Positions 5,958-25,601 are shown, numbered from the stretch's first letter. The stretch is 64,000 bases of DNA from Trichocoleus sp. FACHB-46 (GCF_014695385.1 NZ_JACJOD010000008.1:62001-126000), one strand, 5' to 3'. Numbers and translations are program-made. Notes: generated by a model not told the origin, from the letters alone.

Positions 5958-8741
5958 TTGGTAAGTCAAGCTCTTGATAATCAATCTCCGAAAACCCCAA
6001 GTATTAAAATGGCCCTGCCAACTTCCCCTGGTAAGCCCAGCCTCTGGTCAAACATGCAGCCCAAATGGTGGAAGGAGAGCCACCAGCTTTCTGCTTCCAA
6101 GCAACAAACAGCGGCTTTGCGGCGAAAAACTCTGTTGGCGGTTAGCTTGACGCTCACTAGTTTGCTAACTGTCTTGTATGCCGCCTCATCCACTGTCTTG
6201 ATGAGTAGCTTGCGTAAAGCAGAAGAACAAGATACTCGCTTAGCTTTGCATGGTGTCCTCGATACCATTGCTGGGACTGAAAATGACTTTAGCGGTCGGT
6301 TTACAGATTGGTCTGCTTGGGATGACACCTATAGGTTTGTAGAAGATGCTAATCCGCAATACATCAAAGCCAATCTAATTGCAGAGCAGCTCTCAGCTTT
6401 GAAAGTCAATGCAGTTGCTTTCGTCAACACAGCCAATCACATTGTTTACGCGACAGGCTTTGACATAGGCAAGCAGCAAAAAACCTTGCTCCCCCTCGCA
6501 CTACAGCAACAGCTATTTCCTGGGAGTGTACTCCTACAAGCTTTGCCACCAGGCGAGTATCGTCAAGGTCTGGTCTTATTGCCCAATGGACCGATGCTAG
6601 TGACGGCTCAACCAATTTTGCCTAGTAATGGAAAAGGGCCTAGACGGGGTACGGTCATCTTTGGGCGCTATTTAGATCTGACCAAGGTGAATCAATTCAC
6701 CCAGATCACTGGCTATCCGATCACGATTCATCGGATTGACGCAGCCCAACTCCCATCTGATTTTGCTTCGGCACGAGCCGCTTTATCTATTAAGAACCCC
6801 TCGCTAGTGCGCCCTCTGAACCAGGAAAAGGTGGCGGGCTATGCGTTGGTAAACGATATTTATGACCAGCCTGCCTTACTCGTGCGAGTTGAGTTAACTC
6901 GCAGCATTTATGAACAGGGGCATCGGCCTCTGTTTTACTTAGTTATCTTCTTGGTGGTGATTGGTCTGGTTTTCGGAGCTATTACTCAACTTTTGTTAGA
7001 AAAGCTAATTCTGTTTCAGCATGAGTGCCAAGAACGGGAGGCTCGCTATCGAGCGGTGGTGACTCAAGCGTCAGAAGGGATTTTTCTGATTGATGCTCAG
7101 ACAAAACAGTTTTTGGAAGCTAATGCGTCCTTTTTGCAACTGTTAGGCTACAGCGTTTCGCAACTCCTAGAACTCACCCTTTATGATGTTGCTGTTCTAG
7201 AGCGCGCGGCGCTAGACCAAGCCATGCAGCCTTTGCTGCAAGGAGAAACCCATCTCGCTAGCCAGCAACAGTACTGCGATCGCTGGGGTGGTCTGGTGCA
7301 TGTAGAGGTGAATGCCAATTTGATTGCCTATGCGGGTAGAGAAGCTTTTTGTATGGTGGTGCGAGATATCACTGAGCGTAAGCAGGCTGAGGATGCCTTG
7401 CGCGAGAGTGAACAACGTCTAGCTTGGCAGGCCAGCCATGATGCCCTCACTGGACTCGCCAACCGCCGAGAATTTGAGCGGTGTCTAGAGCAAGCCATTA
7501 CCAGTGTCTCGACGCAAGGCCAACAACATTACCTGTGTTATCTCGATTTGGATCAGTTCAAAATCATTAATGATACTTGTGGTCATCGAGCTGGAGATGA
7601 GTTACTGCGCCAGATTGCAGCGACTCTACAAGCTCAAGTGCGATCGACCGATATCTTAGCGCGGTTAGGCGGAGATGAATTTGGTCTGCTCCTGTATAAC
7701 TGTCAACTCGACCAAGCGCTCAAGATTGCCAATGCCTTGCGTTGGAGTTTGCAAGAGTTCCGGTTTCTCTGGCAAGGGCAAACCTTTAGCTTGGGGGTGA
7801 GCATCGGTTTGACCATGATCGACCAGAAAGAAGCGGACCTCAATAGCGTTCTTAGCGCGGCTGATGCTGCTTGCTATGCTGCCAAAAGCCGAGGCCGTAA
7901 CCGTGTTCACCTTTACCAAGCCGACGATATGGAGTTGGCAAAACAACAGGGGGAAATGCAGTGGGCCGTTCGCATTACTCAGGCTTTAGAGGAAGACCGT
8001 TTCTGCCTTTATTACCAGCCGATCGTGGCGACTCAACAGGCCCAGCTTCAGGAAGAGCACTACGAGGTTTTGCTGCGGCTCCGGGATGAGACAGGTAAAG
8101 TAGTGCCGCCAATGGCATTTCTTCCGGCTGCGGAACGCTATAACTTGATGCACTTGATCGATCGCTGGGTGATTCGCACGTTGTTTGCGGCTCAAGGGCA
8201 ACATTACCGTGCCGCTTGGCAGCGTTGCCAATCTGCTCCCGATCGCTGCCTTTATGCAATTAACCTCTCAGGCGCGAGTATCAATGACGATCAATTCATT
8301 GATTTTCTCCATGAGCAATTTGCGCTGCATCAGGTTCCACCTCAAGTCATCTGTTTTGAAATTACAGAAACAGTGGCGATCGCCAACTTGAACAAGGCAA
8401 TCCAACTGATGCGCGAACTGAAGCAGTTAGGATGCCGCTTTGCGCTTGATGATTTTGGTTCTGGTATGTCTTCATTTGCCTACCTGAAGAGCTTGCCCGT
8501 AGACTACCTTAAGATTGATGGCAACTTTATTAAAGATATTCTAGAAGACCCTACTGATATGGCTATGACAGAAGCCATCAACCAAGTAGGACACGTCATG
8601 GGCTTACAAACCATTGCTGAGTTTGTTGAGAACGATCGCATCTTTGAGGTGATTAAAGCGCTGGGAGTGGACTACGCTCAAGGCTACGGCATCGCCCACC
8701 CTCGGCCTTTTTCTACCGATCCCACCTCCGTTGAGGCATAA
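5958..8741 (+). CDS. CHASE4-PAS-GGDEF-EAL membrane protein (c-di-GMP turnover)
   Basis: A 927-residue membrane-bound cyclic-di-GMP protein. A transmembrane helix at about 57-80 and another at about 325-348 flank an external CHASE4 sensor (DFSGRFTDWSAWDDTYRF). A PAS domain follows (ARYRAVVTQASEGIFLI to DITERKQAE). The GGDEF domain has an intact RLGGDEFG near residue 571. The EAL domain reads EVLLR in place of EALLR but keeps FEITET, DDFGSG and YLKIDG. Both diguanylate cyclase and phosphodiesterase activity are therefore possible. The start chosen is TTG at 5958; ATG at 6009 is an alternative. It is monocistronic, with a 530-base empty spacer behind it. Confidence 0.92.
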   Translation: MVSQALDNQSPKTPSIKMALPTSPGKPSLWSNMQPKWWKESHQLSASKQQTAALRRKTLLAVSLTLTSLLTVLYAASSTVLMSSLRKAEEQDTRLALHGVLDTIAGTENDFSGRFTDWSAWDDTYRFVEDANPQYIKANLIAEQLSALKVNAVAFVNTANHIVYATGFDIGKQQKTLLPLALQQQLFPGSVLLQALPPGEYRQGLVLLPNGPMLVTAQPILPSNGKGPRRGTVIFGRYLDLTKVNQFTQITGYPITIHRIDAAQLPSDFASARAALSIKNPSLVRPLNQEKVAGYALVNDIYDQPALLVRVELTRSIYEQGHRPLFYLVIFLVVIGLVFGAITQLLLEKLILFQHECQEREARYRAVVTQASEGIFLIDAQTKQFLEANASFLQLLGYSVSQLLELTLYDVAVLERAALDQAMQPLLQGETHLASQQQYCDRWGGLVHVEVNANLIAYAGREAFCMVVRDITERKQAEDALRESEQRLAWQASHDALTGLANRREFERCLEQAITSVSTQGQQHYLCYLDLDQFKIINDTCGHRAGDELLRQIAATLQAQVRSTDILARLGGDEFGLLLYNCQLDQALKIANALRWSLQEFRFLWQGQTFSLGVSIGLTMIDQKEADLNSVLSAADAACYAAKSRGRNRVHLYQADDMELAKQQGEMQWAVRITQALEEDRFCLYYQPIVATQQAQLQEEHYEVLLRLRDETGKVVPPMAFLPAAERYNLMHLIDRWVIRTLFAAQGQHYRAAWQRCQSAPDRCLYAINLSGASINDDQFIDFLHEQFALHQVPPQVICFEITETVAIANLNKAIQLMRELKQLGCRFALDDFGSGMSSFAYLKSLPVDYLKIDGNFIKDILEDPTDMAMTEAINQVGHVMGLQTIAEFVENDRIFEVIKALGVDYAQGYGIAHPRPFSTDPTSVEA

Positions 8742-9273
8742 CCAATGAGCGGGATTTCGCGATCGCTGGCGCTATGGGCTATCAAATTTTACAGGTCACT
8801 GTTTTGCTTGCTACTGAGATGGGATCAAAATCAATCTAAAATTTTGAAGATTAAACCCAAAAACATGCTTAATTCAACAAAGGCAGCTCTTAGAACTTGA
8901 ACTAAATAGCGATCGTAGCCTGCTAAGATTCGGTCCTGAGAAATACGTAACGTTGTTGACTGTTTGGAGTTAAATCCATCCTCAAGAATGATTAATGTCA
9001 GCAAGAGCCCGGCCTATCCTAAAACAACTCCTGGCCTGAGGACCTGAACCGAAACTGAATTCCATGCTCATCAATGCTATTCAGCTTGCAGTCATGCCTT
9101 TAACCCAGACCAGTCTACAACAGTTGTAAATGAATCATGGAATTCATTAACTGAAGCAAGATTTTCTATTCCAATCAATTGCAGACCCAAATTTTGAGCT
9201 GTCTCAGAATCAATGGGGTGGTAACAAATCAGTTGTTTGATTGTTGAAAAGTTTTTATTGAGCTCTTTAAATT
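8742..9273. other. Intergenic region without a recognised gene
   Basis: About 530 bases between the GGDEF-EAL gene and the DUF1816 gene. No open frame with protein-like composition, tRNA or strong terminator was found. I checked by eye for the conserved Yfr1 motif ACUCCUCACAC and did not see it. Room exists for a promoter and leader or an unrecognised small RNA. Confidence 0.6.
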
Positions 9274-9561
9274 ATGTTTGGATTCTTTGTGTTTTTCGTT
9301 TTTTGCGTGGCGCTCTTCTTGCTGCTTAGTCGCAAGCAAGTTCAGAAAGATTCTGCTTGGTGGGTCGAGATTGTTACCTCCCAGCCTAAAGGCACCTATT
9401 ACTTTGGTCCTTTCAGCAATGTTGAAGAAGCCAATCACGCTCAATCTGGGTATGTGGAAGATCTAGAGGGAGAAGGCAGTAAGGTCATTGCAGTCCAGGT
9501 GAAATGGTGCCAGCCTAAAGAACTGACGATTGTGGAAGAAGAACAGTTGACTTATAGCTAG
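9274..9561 (+). CDS. DUF1816 domain protein
   Basis: A 95-residue cyanobacterial protein. A hydrophobic N-terminal segment (residues 2-18, rich in Phe and Leu) is followed by the compact DUF1816 pattern: WWVEIVT, TYYFGPF, EA near position 51, GYVEDLEGEGS, then a C-terminal CQPKELTI. The family is essentially restricted to cyanobacteria and has no assigned role. Here the N-terminal hydrophobic stretch could anchor it in a membrane. It converges on the CAP-domain gene with only 8 bases between stop codons, and no terminator separates them. Confidence 0.8.
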   Translation: MFGFFVFFVFCVALFLLLSRKQVQKDSAWWVEIVTSQPKGTYYFGPFSNVEEANHAQSGYVEDLEGEGSKVIAVQVKWCQPKELTIVEEEQLTYS

Positions 9562-9569
9562 GCGATCGC

Positions 9570-10175
9570 CTACTCGAACAGCGCAGGCAGACTGGGTGGA
9601 CGCAAAAACAATTGCGTGAAGTAGTAGCTCTCTCCCTGCTGCCAAACTCCCACCCCTGTCTCGCTATATGGGGCGGTGAGGATGTTTTCTCGATGGCCCG
9701 GGCTTTCCATCCACCCTTTAACAGCCACAGGTCCAGGGTTGGGAATATTGACGCTCTTAAATAAGTTCTCACCCACGATCCAATAGATAATGCCTGCGGC
9801 TTGAACTCGTTGCCCAACATTGCGGCCGTCGGGTCCAGTGTGGCTAAAAAAGTTTTTCTCGGCCATGAGGCGACTGTAATCGCGAGCGACCTGAGCCAAA
9901 CGGTCATTGTTTTGGAGCGGTTTTAATCCTTGCTCCTGCCGAATTTCATTAATGCGTTGTCGTACTGTTGTCTCCATCTCCGCGATCGCGGGTGATTGAA
10001 CCGTAGCAGATAAGTCCCCAGGAGACGGAGACGCAGAGGAAGCTGTAGGTAACTGAGTCGGAAAACTAGAGGGCAATGGCAAGTTGGGAAGTACTTGATT
10101 CAGCGACTCGCAGCCCATCAAGTTCAAGGCGATCGCTCCACCCATGAGCCAGATAGGTAATTTGTTAATGACCAT
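9570..10175 (-). CDS. CAP (SCP/PR-1-like) domain lipoprotein
   Basis: About 201 residues from the ATG at 10175; the frame extends upstream to 10214, but the signal sequence argues for the internal start. The N terminus MVINKLPIWLMGG runs into LNLMGC, a lipobox, so it is probably an exported lipoprotein. After a Pro/Ser-rich linker, residues about 75-195 form the CAP domain: QRINEIRQEQGLKPL, LAQVARDYSRLMAEKNFFSH, VGENLF, GWMESPGHRENIL and the final YYFTQLF. The CAP His and Glu residues are retained. The molecular role of bacterial CAP proteins is generally unknown. Confidence 0.88.
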   Translation of the reverse strand: MVINKLPIWLMGGAIALNLMGCESLNQVLPNLPLPSSFPTQLPTASSASPSPGDLSATVQSPAIAEMETTVRQRINEIRQEQGLKPLQNNDRLAQVARDYSRLMAEKNFFSHTGPDGRNVGQRVQAAGIIYWIVGENLFKSVNIPNPGPVAVKGWMESPGHRENILTAPYSETGVGVWQQGESYYFTQLFLRPPSLPALFE

Positions 10176-10360
10176 TGGCCTATGCAATTCAGTATGTCCC
10201 AGCAGCTTACTCATCAGTTCTTAGAGAAACAGTGCAAAGATTACGCGCCAATCCCTGCCCCTGCTGTAAGGCGGCTCCCAGCCTGGGAGCGGAATGCGGC
10301 TAACTTCAAATTTGTTGAGGTTTTCGTTTCGGCTCACCTATCCCCAGAAGGAGATTCGGT

Positions 10361-11293
10361 CTAGGTGGTTGCCAGCAGGCTCATGATGGCGCTTCTAGTC
10401 GGCAAAGCCGTTTGCGCCCCAAACCCTGTCGTGGCGATCGCTGCGGCGGCATTGGCAAAGCGCCCTGCCTCGGACCAAGGTTGATTCTCGGCTAGGGCAA
10501 CCGCGATCGCCGCTGCAAAAGCATCTCCTGCTCCCGTCGCATCAATGCTCTGCACAGGCACTTTGGGCAACCAACATTCTCCTTCTGGCCAAATCAGCAA
10601 ATTCCCCGCATCACCCGCTTGCATTGCCACGGCTCCCACACCTCGTTGCAGTAAGATACCAGCCGCTTGACGTGCCGAATCTGGATCTGTCACTTTAACG
10701 CCAGTGATCACTTCTGCTTCTGAGGAGTTGGGGCGAATCAAATCAACTTCTTGCAGCAGCTCGTTGGCTAGTGGTACCGCAGGAGCGGGATCAAGCACTG
10801 TCCGTGCCCCTGCTTCCCGACCTAAGCGAAACGCTGCCTGCACCACCTCTAAAGGAGCTTCTAGCTGAGCCAGGACAACTTTAGTCGAGGCGATCGCGGC
10901 TTGGGCTGCCTCGACATCCACAACTGCCAACTGATGATTCGCTCCAGGCGCGGTTAAAATCTGCTTTTCGCCGCCCTGCCCCACCATAATCAGCGCTACT
11001 CCAGTAGCAGCTTGCTCATCTTGCACCACATAGCTGGTATCAACGCCCTGAGCTTGTAGATTAGCCATCAATGCCTGGCCCCGCTCATCCTTGCCAATGC
11101 GGGCCACGAAAGCAACACGAGCGCCTAAACGTGCTGCCGCTACGGCTTGATTGGCTCCCTTGCCGCCGGGTGCAGCTAGAAAAGTTTCGCCTTGAATGGT
11201 TTCGCCAGGTAAGGGGAGTTTAGGGCCTCGAATCAAGTAGTCACTGTTGGCGCTCCCCACAACCACAATGTCCCAAGTCGTTGTTTGTGTCAT
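10361..11293 (-). CDS. rbsK: Ribokinase (PfkB family sugar kinase)
   Basis: A 310-residue PfkB-family kinase, predicted to phosphorylate D-ribose with ATP to ribose 5-phosphate in the cytoplasm. The family signature 1 is visible as GGKGANQAVAAARLGA near residues 43-58, and signature 2, with the catalytic Asp, as DATGAGDAFAAA near residue 252. The length is standard for ribokinase, and the N-terminal VVVGSANSDYL strand is typical. No ribose transporter or rbsD neighbour is present in this window. The exact sugar is inferred from overall resemblance. Confidence 0.9.
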   Translation of the reverse strand: MTQTTTWDIVVVGSANSDYLIRGPKLPLPGETIQGETFLAAPGGKGANQAVAAARLGARVAFVARIGKDERGQALMANLQAQGVDTSYVVQDEQAATGVALIMVGQGGEKQILTAPGANHQLAVVDVEAAQAAIASTKVVLAQLEAPLEVVQAAFRLGREAGARTVLDPAPAVPLANELLQEVDLIRPNSSEAEVITGVKVTDPDSARQAAGILLQRGVGAVAMQAGDAGNLLIWPEGECWLPKVPVQSIDATGAGDAFAAAIAVALAENQPWSEAGRFANAAAAIATTGFGAQTALPTRSAIMSLLATT

Positions 11294-18196: not shown

Positions 18197-19351
18197 ATGG
18201 AATTGACGACAGCCTTAAAAGGGCAGACAGTGCGGAATGCAGTGCGAGAAGTTGGCATCAACCCTGACTATTGGTATGCGGTCGGCTGGGCTAATAAGCT
18301 GAAGCCGAATGAGGTGATGCCCGTCAAGATTTGGCAGCAGGCGATCGCGGTTTATCGAGATGCCACAGGCCAACTCCATGCCCTAGAAGATGCCTGCCCC
18401 CATAAAGGTGTAGCGCTGCACAAAGGTAAAGTGCATGGCACTAATTTGGCTTGTCGCTATCACGGCTGGGAGTTTGATGGCCAAGGGGACTGCGTCAAAA
18501 TACCTTATTTCCCCCCTGAACAAAAATTACCCTGTGCTCAAGCCCGCAGCTACCCCATTCAAGAAAAGTACAACATCATTTGGATTTTTCCGGGTGATCC
18601 AGCGCTGGCTGAAACGTGTTCTCTACCGGATATTGCAGAGTTTGATCACCCCGACTTTTTCATGGTGCCAGTCACCGGACACTTTAAATCTCATTTCTCT
18701 ATCTGCAACGAAAACTCAATGGATGTATTTCATGGGTTTTTACATGAAAATTTGCAGGGTTGGTTCGACCCCATCTTGACCAGCTTGCGAGAAACTGAGA
18801 ATAGCGTCTGTGCGGACTATCGGGTGTCTTACAAAGGCAAGCTGGCGAAATTTTTGGGCTTAGCCGAGGAAGCTGAGCAGGTGACGACCAAAACCGTTTC
18901 AGTAGAATATCGTTATCCGCACTATCAAAGCTCGTTGGAGGGCGTTTCTAGCCTCTATCTGATGCGATTGCCGATGGGTCCTACAGAAAGTGCTTCCTTT
19001 GCCTTGTTCTTTCTGCGTGTGAAGTTGCCCAAGTGGTTTTTGCGATCGCTAGAGCCTGTGCTACAACCCTTGCTGGAGCAGCACGTGTTCATGAAATTTC
19101 TCAATCAAGACATTGAGATGATGGAAAGTGAGCAGCGTCGCTACCTGGACAACCCGCAGCGTCGGTATGTGGAAGTAAACCCAGCCATCATTGCAGTGCA
19201 GCGATTAATTGTCCGGCAGTACGAACAATTTGTGCAAAAATCTAGTCAATCAGAAGATCCCCAAAGCGGGAACTCAGATAACTTTGTTTCTTTCTCTAAG
19301 GCTATGGCTTCTAGCCCAGCCGAGCTAACCACAGAAAGCCCAGTCGGATGA
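18197..19351 (+). CDS. Rieske non-heme iron oxygenase
   Basis: A 384-residue oxygenase alpha-subunit-type protein. The Rieske [2Fe-2S] ligands are visible as DACPHKGVALH (Cys, His) and ACRYHGWEF (Cys, His), residues about 66-95. The mononuclear iron facial triad begins at NENSMDVFHGFLHENL (Asp/His/His region, about 175-190). No transmembrane anchor like that of pheophorbide a oxygenase is clear, though residues 270-295 are hydrophobic. The substrate is unknown. It lies 230 bases upstream of an alpha-oxoamine synthase, GNAT and epimerase series and may hydroxylate that pathway's lipid product (inference). A separate promoter for the later genes is possible. Confidence 0.88.
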   Translation: MELTTALKGQTVRNAVREVGINPDYWYAVGWANKLKPNEVMPVKIWQQAIAVYRDATGQLHALEDACPHKGVALHKGKVHGTNLACRYHGWEFDGQGDCVKIPYFPPEQKLPCAQARSYPIQEKYNIIWIFPGDPALAETCSLPDIAEFDHPDFFMVPVTGHFKSHFSICNENSMDVFHGFLHENLQGWFDPILTSLRETENSVCADYRVSYKGKLAKFLGLAEEAEQVTTKTVSVEYRYPHYQSSLEGVSSLYLMRLPMGPTESASFALFFLRVKLPKWFLRSLEPVLQPLLEQHVFMKFLNQDIEMMESEQRRYLDNPQRRYVEVNPAIIAVQRLIVRQYEQFVQKSSQSEDPQSGNSDNFVSFSKAMASSPAELTTESPVG

Positions 19352-19451
19352 AGGCAACTATACCAGCCGTTCCTCAAACAGATGTAATCCGGAACCGTAC
19401 TTCAGCCTCTACCCAGTACTTTGGTTCACAAACAATTTGGTTGTATAAAGT

Positions 19452-19470
19452 AATCCAGACCCTCTGGATT
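19452..19470 (+). terminator. Hairpin after the Rieske gene
   Basis: A perfect 8-bp stem, AATCCAGA (19452-19459) and TCTGGATT (19463-19470), with a CCC loop, 100 bases after the Rieske stop. The tail is only mildly T-rich (GCTGGTGTTTGG), so termination would be weak. Confidence 0.4.
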
Positions 19471-19580
19471 GCTGGTGTTTGGTGTTGTATTAGACCTGGA
19501 TGATGGGCATTTTGCTAGGAAAATACACTGTTATGCCAGAGACGATAGACTATCTGGGAATAAGGTGAGGGGAGTTTACT

Positions 19581-20861
19581 GTGCAAGTTATTAAAGAATA
19601 CGTCCAGCGCTGGTATGACAGCGAACTTGAGCCAGATGAATACATCTGCCACGCCAAACAAGGAAATTTAGTTGAACTGGAAGATGCTAAAACAGGCGTT
19701 CGCTGCACAGCTTTAACCTTCTGTACCAATGACGTCTTGGGGCTGGTTCAATCCGAGTCAGTTAGACAAGCGGCGATCGATAGCATTGTGCAGTACGGCA
19801 CTTCCAATAGTTCCTGCTCTGTCTTGAGTGGTCGAATTGATTTACATCGTCAGCTCGAAGATGAAATTTCGGCCTTCAAACATCTTCCTCACACCCAACT
19901 CTTTCTGAATGCTTGGATGGCGATGCAAGCCTTAATGGATGCGTTTTGCCATTTAGCAATTCCGGTACCTGGTTTTCAGCATACGCGGGAAACGCTTATT
20001 CTCACCGATGTACTGAACCACGGTTGCATCGTTTCTGCGATCGCCAATGCAGGAACTCGCTCCGGTAAGCTCTTTGGTCATAGCCCCCGGGTGCGGGTTC
20101 GTGCTTACCGACACTGCGATGTCAACGACTTGGCCACCAAACTGCGCCGCTATGCCAGACCCGATGACCGCATCATGGTGGTTTCGGATGCAGTGTTCTC
20201 GATGGATGGCGACATTGCTCCCCTACCCGACATGCTCGACGTGATGCAGAATTACGAAGGCAGCGTCTTGATGATGGATGAAGCTCATGCCAGTGGTGCG
20301 ATCGGAGCAACTGGAAGAGGAATTTACGAGCACTTTAACCTCACTCCTCAGCAAGCGATCGAGCGTGGTGTTGTGCCGCTGATCATGACCACCTTCTCGA
20401 AGTTTGCAGCCTCGGCTGGTGCGGCGATTAGCAGCCATGTAGCTGAGCTGAAGCCGTTGCTGAATGTCTCTCCCACCTCAATCGGCACTATTTCTCTACC
20501 TGCACCCCTCACCGCTGCTGCGCTAGAGAGCATCAAAATAGTGCGACGGGAGCCAGAACGGGTACGTCAATTACAGGAAAATACAGCTTACTTGCGATCG
20601 CGCTTGACCGAGCACGACTTCCTGCCGATCGGCGAAACCAACGTCGTTCCCATTATTTTGCCGTCCGAAATCAATCCCAAGCTGTTTGGTCGGTTGCTGC
20701 TCGAAAACTACGGCATTTGGGTTTCGCCGATCTGGTTTATTGCCAAGCCCCGTTTGCGGGTGACTGTCAACGCCCTCCATACCAAAGAGGAAATGGATCG
20801 ATTGGTGGCAGGGTTAGTGGCAACTCGAAATGTGCTGTATAAACCCACCATTAGTGCTTAG
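19581..20861 (+). CDS. Alpha-oxoamine synthase family PLP enzyme (serine palmitoyltransferase/BioF-like)
   Basis: A 426-residue PLP-dependent acyl-CoA (or acyl-ACP):amino acid condensing enzyme. The GTG start at 19581 follows GAGGGGAG. Visible motifs are the fold-type I core (FCTNDVLGL, GTSNSSCSVLSGRIDLH), the PLP-Asp and His motif MMDEAHASGAIGATGRG, and the Schiff-base lysine near residue 274 in TTFSKFAASAGAAIS. The family includes BioF, KBL, ALAS and Spt. No biotin genes are near; instead a GNAT-like gene and an NAD epimerase follow, which is the Spt, bacterial ceramide synthase and CerR pattern. The function as a 3-ketosphinganine-type synthase is inference; another acyl-aminoketone product is possible. 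Confidence 0.85.
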   Translation: MQVIKEYVQRWYDSELEPDEYICHAKQGNLVELEDAKTGVRCTALTFCTNDVLGLVQSESVRQAAIDSIVQYGTSNSSCSVLSGRIDLHRQLEDEISAFKHLPHTQLFLNAWMAMQALMDAFCHLAIPVPGFQHTRETLILTDVLNHGCIVSAIANAGTRSGKLFGHSPRVRVRAYRHCDVNDLATKLRRYARPDDRIMVVSDAVFSMDGDIAPLPDMLDVMQNYEGSVLMMDEAHASGAIGATGRGIYEHFNLTPQQAIERGVVPLIMTTFSKFAASAGAAISSHVAELKPLLNVSPTSIGTISLPAPLTAAALESIKIVRREPERVRQLQENTAYLRSRLTEHDFLPIGETNVVPIILPSEINPKLFGRLLLENYGIWVSPIWFIAKPRLRVTVNALHTKEEMDRLVAGLVATRNVLYKPTISA

Positions 20862-20878
20862 TTTGATAAAATGCTGCG

Positions 20879-20901
20879 AGGGTAGAAAAATACTCTGCCC
20901 T
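20879..20901 (+). other. Intercistronic hairpin
   Basis: AGGGTAGA (20879-20886) pairs with TCTGCCCT (20894-20901), 8 bp with one G-U, loop 7, in the 73-base gap between the oxoamine synthase and GNAT-like genes. No U-tract follows, so it is more likely an mRNA stability or attenuation element than a full terminator. Confidence 0.4.
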
Positions 20902-20934
20902 TGCCATAAAATCTTTAGTTTCAAAAGTTAAAAA

Positions 20935-22086
20935 ATGGTGGCTACTCAGGCTTCGACGTATCAGATTCGGGCGGTCACAACTCCAGCAGATCAAGACCTG
21001 TTTCTGGATGTGCCAACGCGAGTTTATGCCAATGATCCGAACTGGGTACCGCCTTTACGCAGCAGTACTGCCAAGCAATTCTCACCTAGCAATCCCTTCC
21101 TGCAATACGGTAAACTGCAACCGTTTATCGCAGTCACTCAGGGAGCCAAAGGGCCAGAGGCGGTAGGGCGTGTGGTAGCAGCAGTGAACCAGCGCCTGAT
21201 CGAGCGAGAAGGGCAGCAGATTGGGTTGTTTGGTTTTTTTGAATGTATTGCTGATTTTGCGATCGCTCAAGCACTGCTCGATGCCGCCTCTGACTGGTTG
21301 CGTCAGCAAGGCATGACGGCAGTGCGTGGTCCCATCGATCTTTCAACCCATAACAGTTGCCTGTGGTTAGTTGATGGCTTTGACTCACCGCCAATGGTGA
21401 TGATGCCTTACAATCCCGCTTACTATCCCGAATTTGCCGAGCGGTTGGGTTGGCAAAAGGCTAAAGATGCCTACGCTTACAACTTTCCTTTAGACAAGCC
21501 TTTACCCACCGAGTTCGAGAAAGCCCATCGCATTGCTTGCAAATCCGGCGTAACCTTCCGACCGTTGCGAACGAAAGGGGAAGGTTTTGAGCAAGATTGC
21601 CTTAGCCTCTACCGCTTGTTCACCACCGCCTTTGCAGGCAACTGGAGTTCTACACCCCGCACCCAAGAAGAATTTCTGGAAGAAGCTAAAGAGCTGCAAA
21701 GCTTAGTTGATCCAGACGTATTCCCGATCGCGGAATATAACGGCGAAATGATTGGGTTCTTTATGGGCTTGCCCGACTACAATATTCCCCTCAAACAGGT
21801 GGGCGGCAAGCTCAATTGGCTAGGGATTCTTAAGTTTCTCTGGTATCGTCGCCAGATTAACCAAGGCCGAGTCATTGCTATCTGTTCTTTGCCTGAATAC
21901 CGTCGCAAAATGGTGCCTCTCGCCTTAATTTATTTGGGCATGAGCGGTGGCATCCAAAAAGGGAAACCTTATCAGCGAGCTGAACTCTCTTGGGTTTACG
22001 AAGATAACTTCCCGTCGTGCAAGTTGATTGAAGCGTCGGGTGGCAAGATTTATAAGACGTACCGCATCTACGAAAAAGCATTATGA
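20935..22086 (+). CDS. GNAT-superfamily-like protein (candidate bacterial ceramide synthase)
   Basis: A 383-residue protein of a large bacterial family annotated as GNAT-like or hypothetical. Recognisable conserved stretches are YANDPNWVPPLR (about 32-43), VGRVVAAVNQRLIE, GFFECIADFAIAQALLDAAS, the GPIDLSTHNSCLWLVDGFDS block and MMPYNPAYYPEFAERLGW, with a second acyltransferase-like half ending in QRAELSWVYEDNFPSCKLIE. bCerS of Caulobacter is a GNAT-fold protein that acylates 3-ketosphinganine; the placement after an Spt-like gene suggests the same role here (inference). Its stop overlaps the epimerase start by ATGA, so translation is coupled. Confidence 0.75.
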   Translation: MVATQASTYQIRAVTTPADQDLFLDVPTRVYANDPNWVPPLRSSTAKQFSPSNPFLQYGKLQPFIAVTQGAKGPEAVGRVVAAVNQRLIEREGQQIGLFGFFECIADFAIAQALLDAASDWLRQQGMTAVRGPIDLSTHNSCLWLVDGFDSPPMVMMPYNPAYYPEFAERLGWQKAKDAYAYNFPLDKPLPTEFEKAHRIACKSGVTFRPLRTKGEGFEQDCLSLYRLFTTAFAGNWSSTPRTQEEFLEEAKELQSLVDPDVFPIAEYNGEMIGFFMGLPDYNIPLKQVGGKLNWLGILKFLWYRRQINQGRVIAICSLPEYRRKMVPLALIYLGMSGGIQKGKPYQRAELSWVYEDNFPSCKLIEASGGKIYKTYRIYEKAL

Positions 22087-23054
22087 AGGCGCTAGTCACC
22101 GGAGCAAACGGCTTTACCGGATCTCACCTGGTTCGTCTATTGGAACAGCGGGGTGACCAGGTAGTAGGGCTGGTCCGTAAGTCGAGCAATTTGTCGCGCC
22201 TAGCTGACACTCAAGTGCACCTGGTTTATGGTGACCTCAGCGATCGCGAAGCCTTACGCACCGCCATGCAAGGGGTAGACATAGTATTTCACACCGCTGC
22301 CTATGTGGAGTTGGGTTTGGTGAATGCGGCTGAGATGGAGCGTGTGAACGTAGAAGGCACTCGCGCCGTGATGGAAGTAGCCAAAGAAGTGGACGTGGCC
22401 AAAGTGGTCTATTGCAGCACCATTGGGGTGTTTGGTGACACGCAAGGGCAAGTGGTGGATGAGACCTTTCAGCGCACTCAAAAAGACTTTTCCTCCGCCT
22501 ACGATCGCACTAAATATGACGCGCAAGTATTTGTGGATCAGATGGCGCAGCAAGGGCTACCCGTCGTGAGTGTGATGCCCTCTGGAATTTTTGGCGCGGA
22601 TGATCCGCACTTTATTCCGGTCTTGCGGCAATTTCTCAAAGGTGGACTGAAGCTCTGGGCCGGGGGCGATCGCGTCACGGGTGTAGTCCACGTTGATGAC
22701 CTGGCGATGGCCATGATCTTGGCTGCCGAGAGAGCGCCAACCGGAGAGCACTACATTATTTCTGCTGGGGATTTGACCACACGAGAAATGTTCCAAATTG
22801 TGGGTCAGCAAGCTGGGATTGCTGCTCCCACCGAGGCTCCCAAAGCTTTGGTTAGGTTAGTGGGGAATATCTTAGACCCCCTTGGTCGCTTGTTCTCCTG
22901 GCAACCACCTCTGAGCCGAGAGCGGGTTCACTACGTCTACGATCGCTGTGTGCGGGTTGATGCCGCTAAAGCCCGACGCGAATTGAATTGGCAACCCCGC
23001 TCCGTTGCTGACACCTTGACCGAAATCGCTCAAGCAGTCCAGAAGACGCTTTAG
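22083..23054 (+). CDS. NAD(P)-dependent epimerase/dehydratase (candidate ceramide reductase-like)
   Basis: A 323-residue extended short-chain dehydrogenase. The nucleotide-binding motif GANGFTGSHLVRLLEQRG opens the protein, YGDLSD and FHTAAYVELG follow, and the catalytic Tyr and Lys are in SAYDRTKYDA (YxxxK), about residue 140. It resembles the hopanoid-associated sugar epimerase HpnA group and, equally, the CerR ketoreductase of bacterial sphingolipid synthesis, both members of this superfamily. The ATGA overlap with the GNAT-like gene and the upstream oxoamine synthase favour the reductase role (inference). No hopanoid gene is in the window. A long palindrome at 23326 ends the region. Confidence 0.82.
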   Translation: MKALVTGANGFTGSHLVRLLEQRGDQVVGLVRKSSNLSRLADTQVHLVYGDLSDREALRTAMQGVDIVFHTAAYVELGLVNAAEMERVNVEGTRAVMEVAKEVDVAKVVYCSTIGVFGDTQGQVVDETFQRTQKDFSSAYDRTKYDAQVFVDQMAQQGLPVVSVMPSGIFGADDPHFIPVLRQFLKGGLKLWAGGDRVTGVVHVDDLAMAMILAAERAPTGEHYIISAGDLTTREMFQIVGQQAGIAAPTEAPKALVRLVGNILDPLGRLFSWQPPLSRERVHYVYDRCVRVDAAKARRELNWQPRSVADTLTEIAQAVQKTL

Positions 23055-23385: not shown

Positions 23386-24159
23386 CTAGGCAGCATATCG
23401 CTGATCGAGCATGCCATCTTCCAAGTTCACCACTCGGTCTGCCACATCCATAATGCGTGGGTCATGAGTCACCATCAACACTGTACGACCCCCCTCTTTG
23501 GCAAGGTTTCGTAGCAACTCAATCACTGCATGGCCGCTACGAGAGTCCAGAGCCGCAGTAGGTTCATCCGCCATGATTAGGGGTGGGTCGCCTGCTAAAG
23601 CTCGTGCGATCGCCACTCGTTGTTGTTGGCCACCCGATAGCTCTCGAGGTAGTAACTTTACTTTATCTTGCAGCCCCACCTGTTCTAGCAAGCTTTGAGC
23701 CTGCTGGCGACGGTTACTGCGCCCTCGAAGACCTTTGACCTTAAGTGCTAATTCCACATTTTCAAGGGCAGTCAGGGCAGGAAACAGATTAAATCCTTGA
23801 AAAATAAAACCAATATTTTCCAAGCGGAACTGGGATAGTTGGGTGCGAGACATTCTTGTAATTTCTTGCCCTAACAAATGAACACTGCCGCGGCTAGGTG
23901 TTAAGATCCCCGCTAGGATAGAGAGCAGCGTAGTTTTTCCAGATCCAGAAGGACCCATCAGCAAATAAATGTCCCCTCTCTGGATATCGAGATCAATATC
24001 TTTCAGGGCGTAGAAGCGTTCAGCACCGGATTGGAATACCATTTCCACCCCACGGGCAGCAATGGCATTGGTTTTAATTTGGGTAGAGCCTATTGCGGTA
24101 GAAGCAACCTGACTCTGAAGCTGGGCATATTCAGCAAAACGAATTTGAGAAGCAGTCAT
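23386..24159 (-). CDS. devA: DevA-type ABC transporter ATP-binding protein
   Basis: A 257-residue ABC ATPase of the LolD/MacB/DevA group. It has Walker A GPSGSGKTTLL, signature LSGGQQQRVAIARAL, Walker B LIMADEPTAALD and the switch His in VTHDPR. The N terminus is about 30 residues longer than usual before the MVFQSG core. With the DevC-like permease upstream on the same strand (182-base gap) it should power export across the inner membrane toward an outer-membrane TolC partner. In heterocyst formers DevBCA exports glycolipids; here the substrate is unknown. No devB is adjacent. Confidence 0.87.
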   Translation of the reverse strand: MTASQIRFAEYAQLQSQVASTAIGSTQIKTNAIAARGVEMVFQSGAERFYALKDIDLDIQRGDIYLLMGPSGSGKTTLLSILAGILTPSRGSVHLLGQEITRMSRTQLSQFRLENIGFIFQGFNLFPALTALENVELALKVKGLRGRSNRRQQAQSLLEQVGLQDKVKLLPRELSGGQQQRVAIARALAGDPPLIMADEPTAALDSRSGHAVIELLRNLAKEGGRTVLMVTHDPRIMDVADRVVNLEDGMLDQRYAA

Positions 24160-24341: not shown

Positions 24342-25601
24342 TTATGCCTTAAACACGATGGCGGGGTCAACTCGAGTTACCTTCTGAATCGCGAACAAGG
24401 CAGAGCTGACACACATCACCACCGTGATGCCGAAAACTCCGAAGGCTGTTGCGGGTGTAATTAAAATCAGAATCCCCTGAGTTGCCGATGTCCATGTGCC
24501 GACTCCAAGACACAGGGCTAAGCTAGGCAGGTAACCCAAAACGGCCATCCATAAGGCTTGCTCGACAATCACGCTGTAGATTACCCAATCTGACGCGCCC
24601 ATCGCTTTGAGAGTTCCGAACTCTCGTAGGTGATCCGAGACAGAGGAGTACAGAATTTGGCCCACAATCACGATTCCCACAATGATGCCAACAGCAGCTC
24701 CTAGACCGAGAACAAAGCCAATGCCCGTACGTTTTTGCCAATAATTACGAGTTTTTGCCACCATTTCGGCTCGTGTATAGGCATGGGTATTGGGCAGAGT
24801 CGCTTCTAACCGTTTTTTAAGAATTGCTAGATCTTGGTTGGGTTGGGCCCGAATCAAAATATAAGTGATGGGGTCGCCTAAATTCAGGCGACGGGGGGCC
24901 GCAGGCGCAGGATTGACCGAGCCAGTGCCAGCAGGCGCTGTTTCATAGGTGTTGGTGCATTGCACCTCCTCGGAGCCAGTCTGCGATCGGCATTGCAGGT
25001 TAGAACGGATGGGGGAGTTTATATAGGCATTGGCATTTTCTAAAGAGGTAAATAGGAAGCTACTAGACACCATTGACTGAGTGCCGCGAGTGAGACCAAC
25101 GAGTCGAGCTGGAAGTGAGCCGATCGCGCCTTGAGCATTAAGGGTTTTAAGATTCAGTGAATCTGCATTGGTTTCATCCACCATCACCGAAAAAGGCTGC
25201 TTGAGGGCACTGAGGCTGCCTTGGGTGATGTTTTGGGGAGAAAATAACTGTCCTTGAGGATCAAAGCCGACGACTCGGACTGGCGCAATCTCGTCTTGAG
25301 AGTTACGCCAAATGCCTGGCCTAAAGATCAAGGCTTCCGCTCGCCCTACGCCTGGTACTTGTTGCGCGACCCTAAGCTGATCCACTGCCAGAGGTAGCGT
25401 CAGCTCAATCTGCACCATGTCTTTGGAAGCAACCCAAACATCAGCCTGAGATTGGTCAATCAGGAGGGTGGTAGAACGAGTAAACCCTCTGAGAATTCCA
25501 GTCTGAATAGTGACAAGGCTGACTGCAAACATGATGCCAGCTTGAGCCACCAGGAATCGAGGAATATCCTCAAACAAGTTTTTGCGGGCGATGGAAGCCA
25601 T
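24342..25601 (-). CDS. devC: DevC-type ABC transporter permease
   Basis: A 419-residue FtsX/MacB-type permease, matching DevC from its first residues (SIARKNLFEDIPRFLVAQAG). One transmembrane helix near residues 18-38 is followed by a large periplasmic domain and three helices near 295-320, 345-370 and 385-410. The periplasmic part includes an extra Cys-containing, Pro/Ala-rich insert at about 195-235 (two Cys pairs possible), longer than the typical 385-residue DevC. It lies 74 bases after glmS and before devA on the minus strand. The membrane-fusion subunit DevB is absent from the neighbourhood. Confidence 0.87.
   Translation of the reverse strand: MASIARKNLFEDIPRFLVAQAGIMFAVSLVTIQTGILRGFTRSTTLLIDQSQADVWVASKDMVQIELTLPLAVDQLRVAQQVPGVGRAEALIFRPGIWRNSQDEIAPVRVVGFDPQGQLFSPQNITQGSLSALKQPFSVMVDETNADSLNLKTLNAQGAIGSLPARLVGLTRGTQSMVSSSFLFTSLENANAYINSPIRSNLQCRSQTGSEEVQCTNTYETAPAGTGSVNPAPAAPRRLNLGDPITYILIRAQPNQDLAILKKRLEATLPNTHAYTRAEMVAKTRNYWQKRTGIGFVLGLGAAVGIIVGIVIVGQILYSSVSDHLREFGTLKAMGASDWVIYSVIVEQALWMAVLGYLPSLALCLGVGTWTSATQGILILITPATAFGVFGITVVMCVSSALFAIQKVTRVDPAIVFKA

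Follow-up and report, generated by a model that had tools for sequence, protein, structure and literature searches.

A conserved cyanobacterial gene set resembling bacterial ceramide synthesis, the probable core of a pathway to a hydroxylated N-acyl aminoalcohol lipid

Ceramides are made in bacteria in three steps, by Spt, bCerS and CerR (PMC11087976, PMC9386255). Here we describe four adjacent genes of the cyanobacterium Trichocoleus sp. FACHB-46 that recall this pathway. The stretch analyzed (hereafter the window) comprises 64,000 nucleotides (GCF_014695385.1, NZ_JACJOD010000008.1:62001-126000; contig C8 of genome G000 in our set) of a 6.56-Mb genome, and the genes occupy its positions 18197-23054. 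To our knowledge, no genetic basis for sphingolipids in cyanobacteria has been found. A sequence-only reading of the window, which had proposed a ceramide-like lipid cluster at this place, considered that such lipids are not generally to be expected in this phylum. They are, however, not wholly unreported (PMC8895605, PMC6272925): two ceramides were described, from Scytonema julianum and Moorea producens, with no genes given, and the one genetic test in cyanobacteria, in Nostoc punctiforme, was negative, this species having no sphingolipids and a single alpha-oxoamine synthase (AOS) that was inactive as Spt (PMC8895605). Besides, a Black Sea survey found Spt-like genes in 40 phyla, and its text has the word “cyanobacteria” only in the reference list (PMC11334938).

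All four genes are on the plus strand. They code for a Rieske non-heme iron oxygenase (18197..19351; PF00355 at E 1.5e-23 in Pfam, and VanA_C), an AOS of a separate cyanobacterial clade (19581..20861, GTG start; Aminotran_1_2, E 2.7e-30), a tandem-GNAT acyltransferase of the YghO/bCerS family (20935..22086; Acetyltransf_1, E 1.5e-4) and an extended short-chain dehydrogenase/reductase (SDR), an HpnA/CerR-like putative keto reductase (22083..23054; Epimerase, E 1.1e-41). Open reading frames (ORFs) and Pfam matches agree with the families and order noted in the sequence-only reading, including the overlap of the GNAT and SDR frames via ATGA. Its boundary was too narrow, as the module also takes in a DevA/DevC-like pair directly downstream and, on another contig, a second locus. 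We propose, with a probability of about 0.62, that these genes form the core of a variant of the ceramide-type pathway that would make a hydroxylated N-acyl aminoalcohol lipid in cyanobacteria.

The distribution of the genes was analyzed in a sample of 59 cyanobacterial genomes, 25 AOS-positive and 34 AOS-negative. AOS, GNAT and SDR occurred in the identical 25 genomes, with identity over the carriers of 71–100%, 59–100% and 63–100%, respectively. These carriers spanned 13 of the 29 sampled families, with one family mixed. If genomes were independent, p for such complete agreement over 25 genomes would be about 3e-17, a figure that shared ancestry raises. Orthologs of the Rieske oxygenase were present in 22 of the 25 AOS-positive and in none of the AOS-negative genomes, which had only distant Rieske paralogs (<50% identity). 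Most AOS-negative genomes hold a BioF-like paralog, so the profile does not concern AOS genes in general. When the sample was enlarged to 194 genomes, all 68 with AOS also had the GNAT, and only two more were GNAT-positive (70 in total), one of them through a fragment at a contig end. The genes stay together as a genome set, even when AOS and GNAT are on different contigs. In a scan of named genomes (80 loci; 169 relatives in all), carriers were mostly Leptolyngbyaceae, Oculatella, Chroococcidiopsis-like taxa, Symploca, Hormoscilla, Rhizonema, Spirulina subsalsa and one Scytonema metagenome-assembled genome (MAG). Cultured strains among the carriers are Gloeocapsopsis crepidinum LEGE 06123, Aliterella atlantica CENA595 and Leptolyngbya sp. 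FACHB-321, among others. The GNAT gene was within 8 kb of AOS in 34 of 64 loci, and the AOS contig carried the Rieske gene, usually just upstream, in 65 of the 72 loci with enough upstream sequence. Because three genes share one genome set and the fourth is linked to AOS, the arrangement is not due to chance. The sequence-only reading had asked whether the genes stay together in related genomes, which they do, and its inclusion of the upstream Rieske gene is supported by linkage and genome profile. A full cyanobacterial cluster was also observed in a MAG labeled Tatlockia, a gammaproteobacterium (JACCVJ010000530.1); this contig is most likely mis-binned.

The GNAT, which the sequence-only reading had likened to bCerS, does belong to this family. 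With E. coli BL21 and Sphingomonas parapaucimobilis as reference loci, it was a full-length homolog of BL21 YghO (29% identity, E 1e-51) and matched the Spt-linked GNAT of S. parapaucimobilis with E 7e-47; yghO is listed as an ortholog of Caulobacter CC_1154 (PMC9386255). The closest non-cyanobacterial GNATs found, from Rubrobacter (36%), Streptomyces (33%) and Nonomuraea (34%), are located in AOS-GNAT-SDR trios. In a small sample, Arg209 and Arg312 were conserved in all 13 cyanobacterial and all 8 Spt-linked proteins, and four proteins from other contexts had different residues at these positions; further residues are also common to Spt-linked members. An AlphaFold2 model (mean pLDDT 69) had a tandem GNAT fold, and Foldseek matched it to other such GNATs (E 1.6e-11). 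On Rhizobiaceae plasmids (L197:3794-7078 and L198:3937-7045) the YghO family is used differently: a distant member is part of a ThiF-adenylyltransferase cluster that has no AOS in its vicinity.

In the AOS the catalytic residues are kept: the lysine for pyridoxal phosphate (PLP), Lys274, which is the invariant lysine of TTFSK and the one that had been noted as TFSK, the stacking histidine (His147) and the Asp/His pair (Asp233 and His236). The AlphaFold2 model of this protein had a mean pLDDT of 59, too low for it to be relied on. Window-type enzymes formed their own deep clade (support 100/100), marked by 11-, 12- and 7-residue insertions and a shortened C-terminal active-site loop. The approximately unbiased (AU) test allowed a sister position to Spt (p-AU 0.45, at a cost of 0.5 lnL), to KBL (0.36) or to cyanobacterial BioF (0.15). 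The value for Spt was obtained with two nested cyanobacterial paralogs that fall within the Spt clade; the constraint with Spt minus these paralogs had p-AU 0.006. The reference Spt of S. paucimobilis was verified against PDB 2jg2, which it matches over all 420 residues. Although the fold, PLP lysine and catalytic motifs are also those of BioF and KBL, the window AOS is below the family cut-offs (227.7 bits for BioF TIGR00858, cut-off 426.45). The same genome has a separate true BioF (464.5 bits, over the cut-off) and a third AOS. The window AOS is therefore not the biotin enzyme, and the contrary outcome named in the sequence-only reading, biotin synthases as closest relatives, was not observed. 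The two nested paralogs (L107, G056:C1:112800-114200; L108, G005:C498:2100-3400, within a 1301-codon open frame) differ from the window AOS and may be true Spt-like or megasynthase-linked enzymes. Other AOS-like domains were observed in very long frames at G026:C1:2533700-2534734 (2746 codons), G024:C1:2009754-2010779 (1157 codons) and G079:C55:24275-25315 (2760 codons), which suggests fusion to large multidomain enzymes.

Among ORFs of at least 90 aa, recurrent neighbors were a major facilitator superfamily (MFS) transporter, a GH3 enzyme, a PF04116 fatty-acid hydroxylase, an Mpo1-like protein (PF06127), an amidohydrolase, a protein of the aspartyl-hydroxylase family (PF05118) and the DevA/DevC-like pair. 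Three of them followed the AOS profile: the hydroxylase was found in 23, the GH3 adenylating enzyme in 20 and the Mpo1-like protein in 10 of the AOS-positive genomes, and none of the three in any AOS-negative genome. In four loci (L124, L126, L128 and L141), a single cluster contains amidohydrolase, Mpo1, hydroxylase, GH3, MFS, Rieske, AOS, GNAT, SDR, DevA and DevC. In Trichocoleus, by comparison, GH3 (6498-8219, minus strand), hydroxylase (about 8461-8964, plus), Mpo1-like (9127-9453, plus) and amidohydrolase (9583-10980, plus) are grouped at a second locus, on contig C13 (L200). That genes found at two loci here form one cluster elsewhere is strong evidence of one pathway. The best PDB match of the hydroxylase, below threshold, was SCS7, the yeast ceramide fatty-acid hydroxylase. 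The GH3 protein weakly matched OlsH, a GH3-family lyso-ornithine lipid synthetase (92 bits, cut-off 620), and a literature search on bacterial Mpo1 found nothing.

These neighbors can also be read differently. The product may be a secondary metabolite and no membrane lipid: the same chemistry, applied to a short or non-fatty acyl unit, would give an acylated aminoketone or aminoalcohol. GH3, MFS and amidohydrolase genes would suit a small-molecule cluster, the AOS clade, with loops of its own, is equally far from Spt, BioF and KBL, and AOS clusters with other products exist, such as those for sphinganines derived from polyketide synthases (PMC12134224). However, AOS and GNAT are strongly conserved (59–97% identity) over 13 of the 29 sampled families, which is not the patchy pattern typical of secondary metabolites. 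The GNAT is also a bCerS-family protein, and lipids are the usual substrates of the hydroxylase and Mpo1 families. We consider this alternative unlikely. A smaller chance is given to a 1-deoxy- or sulfono-type sphingolipid analog, for which AOS would take alanine, glycine or cysteate over serine before N-acylation and reduction. In all members of the AOS clade it is the serine/carboxylate-binding C-terminal loop that is shortened, and the PDB relatives of the AOS include a cysteate acyltransferase; yet no sequence feature seen selects a particular amino acid, and such a product would be a substrate variant of the ceramide-type pathway with the same mechanism.

The SDR has the GxxGxxG nucleotide motif and YxxxK, and the Rieske protein keeps its [2Fe-2S] ligands (CPH..CxYH) and iron site (NEN-x-MD-xx-H-xxx-H). 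Their database matches could point to a terpenoid-modifying module, with the pair acting like the sterol C4-demethylases SdmA and SdmB, or like HpnA on hopanoids, and with AOS and GNAT unrelated. The best NCBIfam matches were indeed SdmA for the Rieske protein (234 bits) and HpnA for the SDR (TIGR03466, 211.4 bits), which also matched SdmB (142 bits), but all are far below the cut-offs (600, 367.65 and 600, respectively). As the SDR shares both profile and operon with GNAT and AOS and not with a terpene gene, we regard this explanation as very improbable. A relation to saxitoxin assembly, considered because SxtA has GNAT and AOS domains, the pathway has Rieske enzymes and our Rieske protein aligns to SxtT and SxtDIOX at ~83 bits, was rejected on the higher score of dicamba monooxygenase (88 bits), the free-standing YghO-type GNAT, the lack of any other sxt gene seen and the occurrence of the genes in a third of sampled cyanobacteria.

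Several observations weigh against the ceramide-type pathway. In the best tree the Rubrobacter, Streptomyces and Aureispira enzymes belong to the Spt clade and the window AOS does not; its loop length is not PATP-type either, so that its substrates may differ. The SDR is only weakly CerR-like: it has 24–32% identity to CerR and CerR-like proteins (35% to one partial sequence; the best E-value, 5e-26, was for Streptomyces), most CerRs are closer to each other than to it, and HpnA is its top family match. The deep GNAT tree gives no clear grouping of the cyanobacterial proteins either with the Spt-linked ones or apart from them, and YghO-family GNATs also occur without AOS of the window clade. 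This is the case in G079, an apparently complete genome with a GNAT (G079:C20:10441-11553, 73% identity), which is a candidate for secondary loss or replacement of AOS. Neither a dedicated acyl carrier protein (ACP) nor an acyl-ACP synthetase, which accompany the pathway in Rhodobacteria, was observed next to the genes, although ACPs would be missed at the ORF length screened. Finally, the co-occurrence counts ignore shared ancestry. The pathway logic is supported, by GNAT identity and the AOS-GNAT-SDR order, and this part of the sequence-only reading stands; the labels Spt and CerR, drawn from the known pathway to which it had compared the genes, are not supported by sequence.

In the ceramide-type pathway that we favor, AOS would form an aminoketone by condensation of an amino acid and an activated fatty acyl group, the GNAT would N-acylate the amine and the SDR would reduce the ketone to an alcohol. 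The Rieske oxygenase, the PF04116 hydroxylase of the second locus and, in some genomes, the Mpo1-like enzyme may oxidize or trim the chains, GH3 may adenylate an acyl acid for amide formation, and the DevA/DevC-like exporter may carry the product to the cell envelope. Families, catalytic motifs of AOS, Rieske protein and SDR, genome profile, linkage and the homology of the GNAT to bCerS are the basis for this scheme, from which we infer all substrates, the order of steps, the hydroxylation sites and export. A wider and more tentative idea, to which we give somewhat less than even odds, is that the new AOS subfamily and bCerS-type GNAT, with Rieske/PF04116 hydroxylation and Mpo1- and GH3-type partners, define a widespread sphingolipid-like class made by a phytoceramide-like route, in parallel to the SUR2, FA2H and MPO1 chemistry of plants and fungi.

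If true, this would add a lipid class to photosynthetic bacteria and define a new AOS subfamily, and bacterial ceramide chemistry would gain oxygen-dependent hydroxylases. The gene set is conserved in roughly one in three of the cyanobacteria sampled, and the resulting prediction for carrier and non-carrier species makes the question of cyanobacterial sphingolipids testable. The pattern in the literature agrees with a picture in which presence of AOS should predict the lipid.

Several known systems are close to the module. A DevA-like ATPase (23386..24159, minus strand; TIGR02982, 260.8 bits) and a DevC-like FtsX permease (24342..25601, minus strand; TIGR01185, 159.8 bits) adjoin the module and are reminiscent of DevBCA, the heterocyst glycolipid exporter. 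However, both are below the DevA and DevC cut-offs (295.8 and 290, respectively) and DevB was not found adjacent. The pair recurs at AOS loci, rearranged ones included. A DevC-like ortholog was present in 25 of 25 AOS-positive but also in several AOS-negative genomes, which ruled out DevC as an exclusive member in the genome-profile test and makes it an associate and no marker. The trios of Rubrobacter and of Streptomyces plasmids have the same AOS-GNAT-SDR order; their AOS, unlike ours, belongs to the Spt clade (100/99), and the stretches read were without Rieske and hydroxylase genes. The Spt-bCerS-CerR pathway of Caulobacter, Sphingomonas and the E. coli BL21 spt/yghO cluster likewise combines an AOS, a YghO-family GNAT homologous over its full length and an extended SDR. 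The window module differs from it in the position of the AOS and the HpnA-like SDR, in that no adjacent AcpR/AasR pair was seen among the ORFs screened, and in the addition of Rieske, PF04116 hydroxylase, GH3 and Mpo1-like enzymes. The kind of system is known, and the variant appears to be new.

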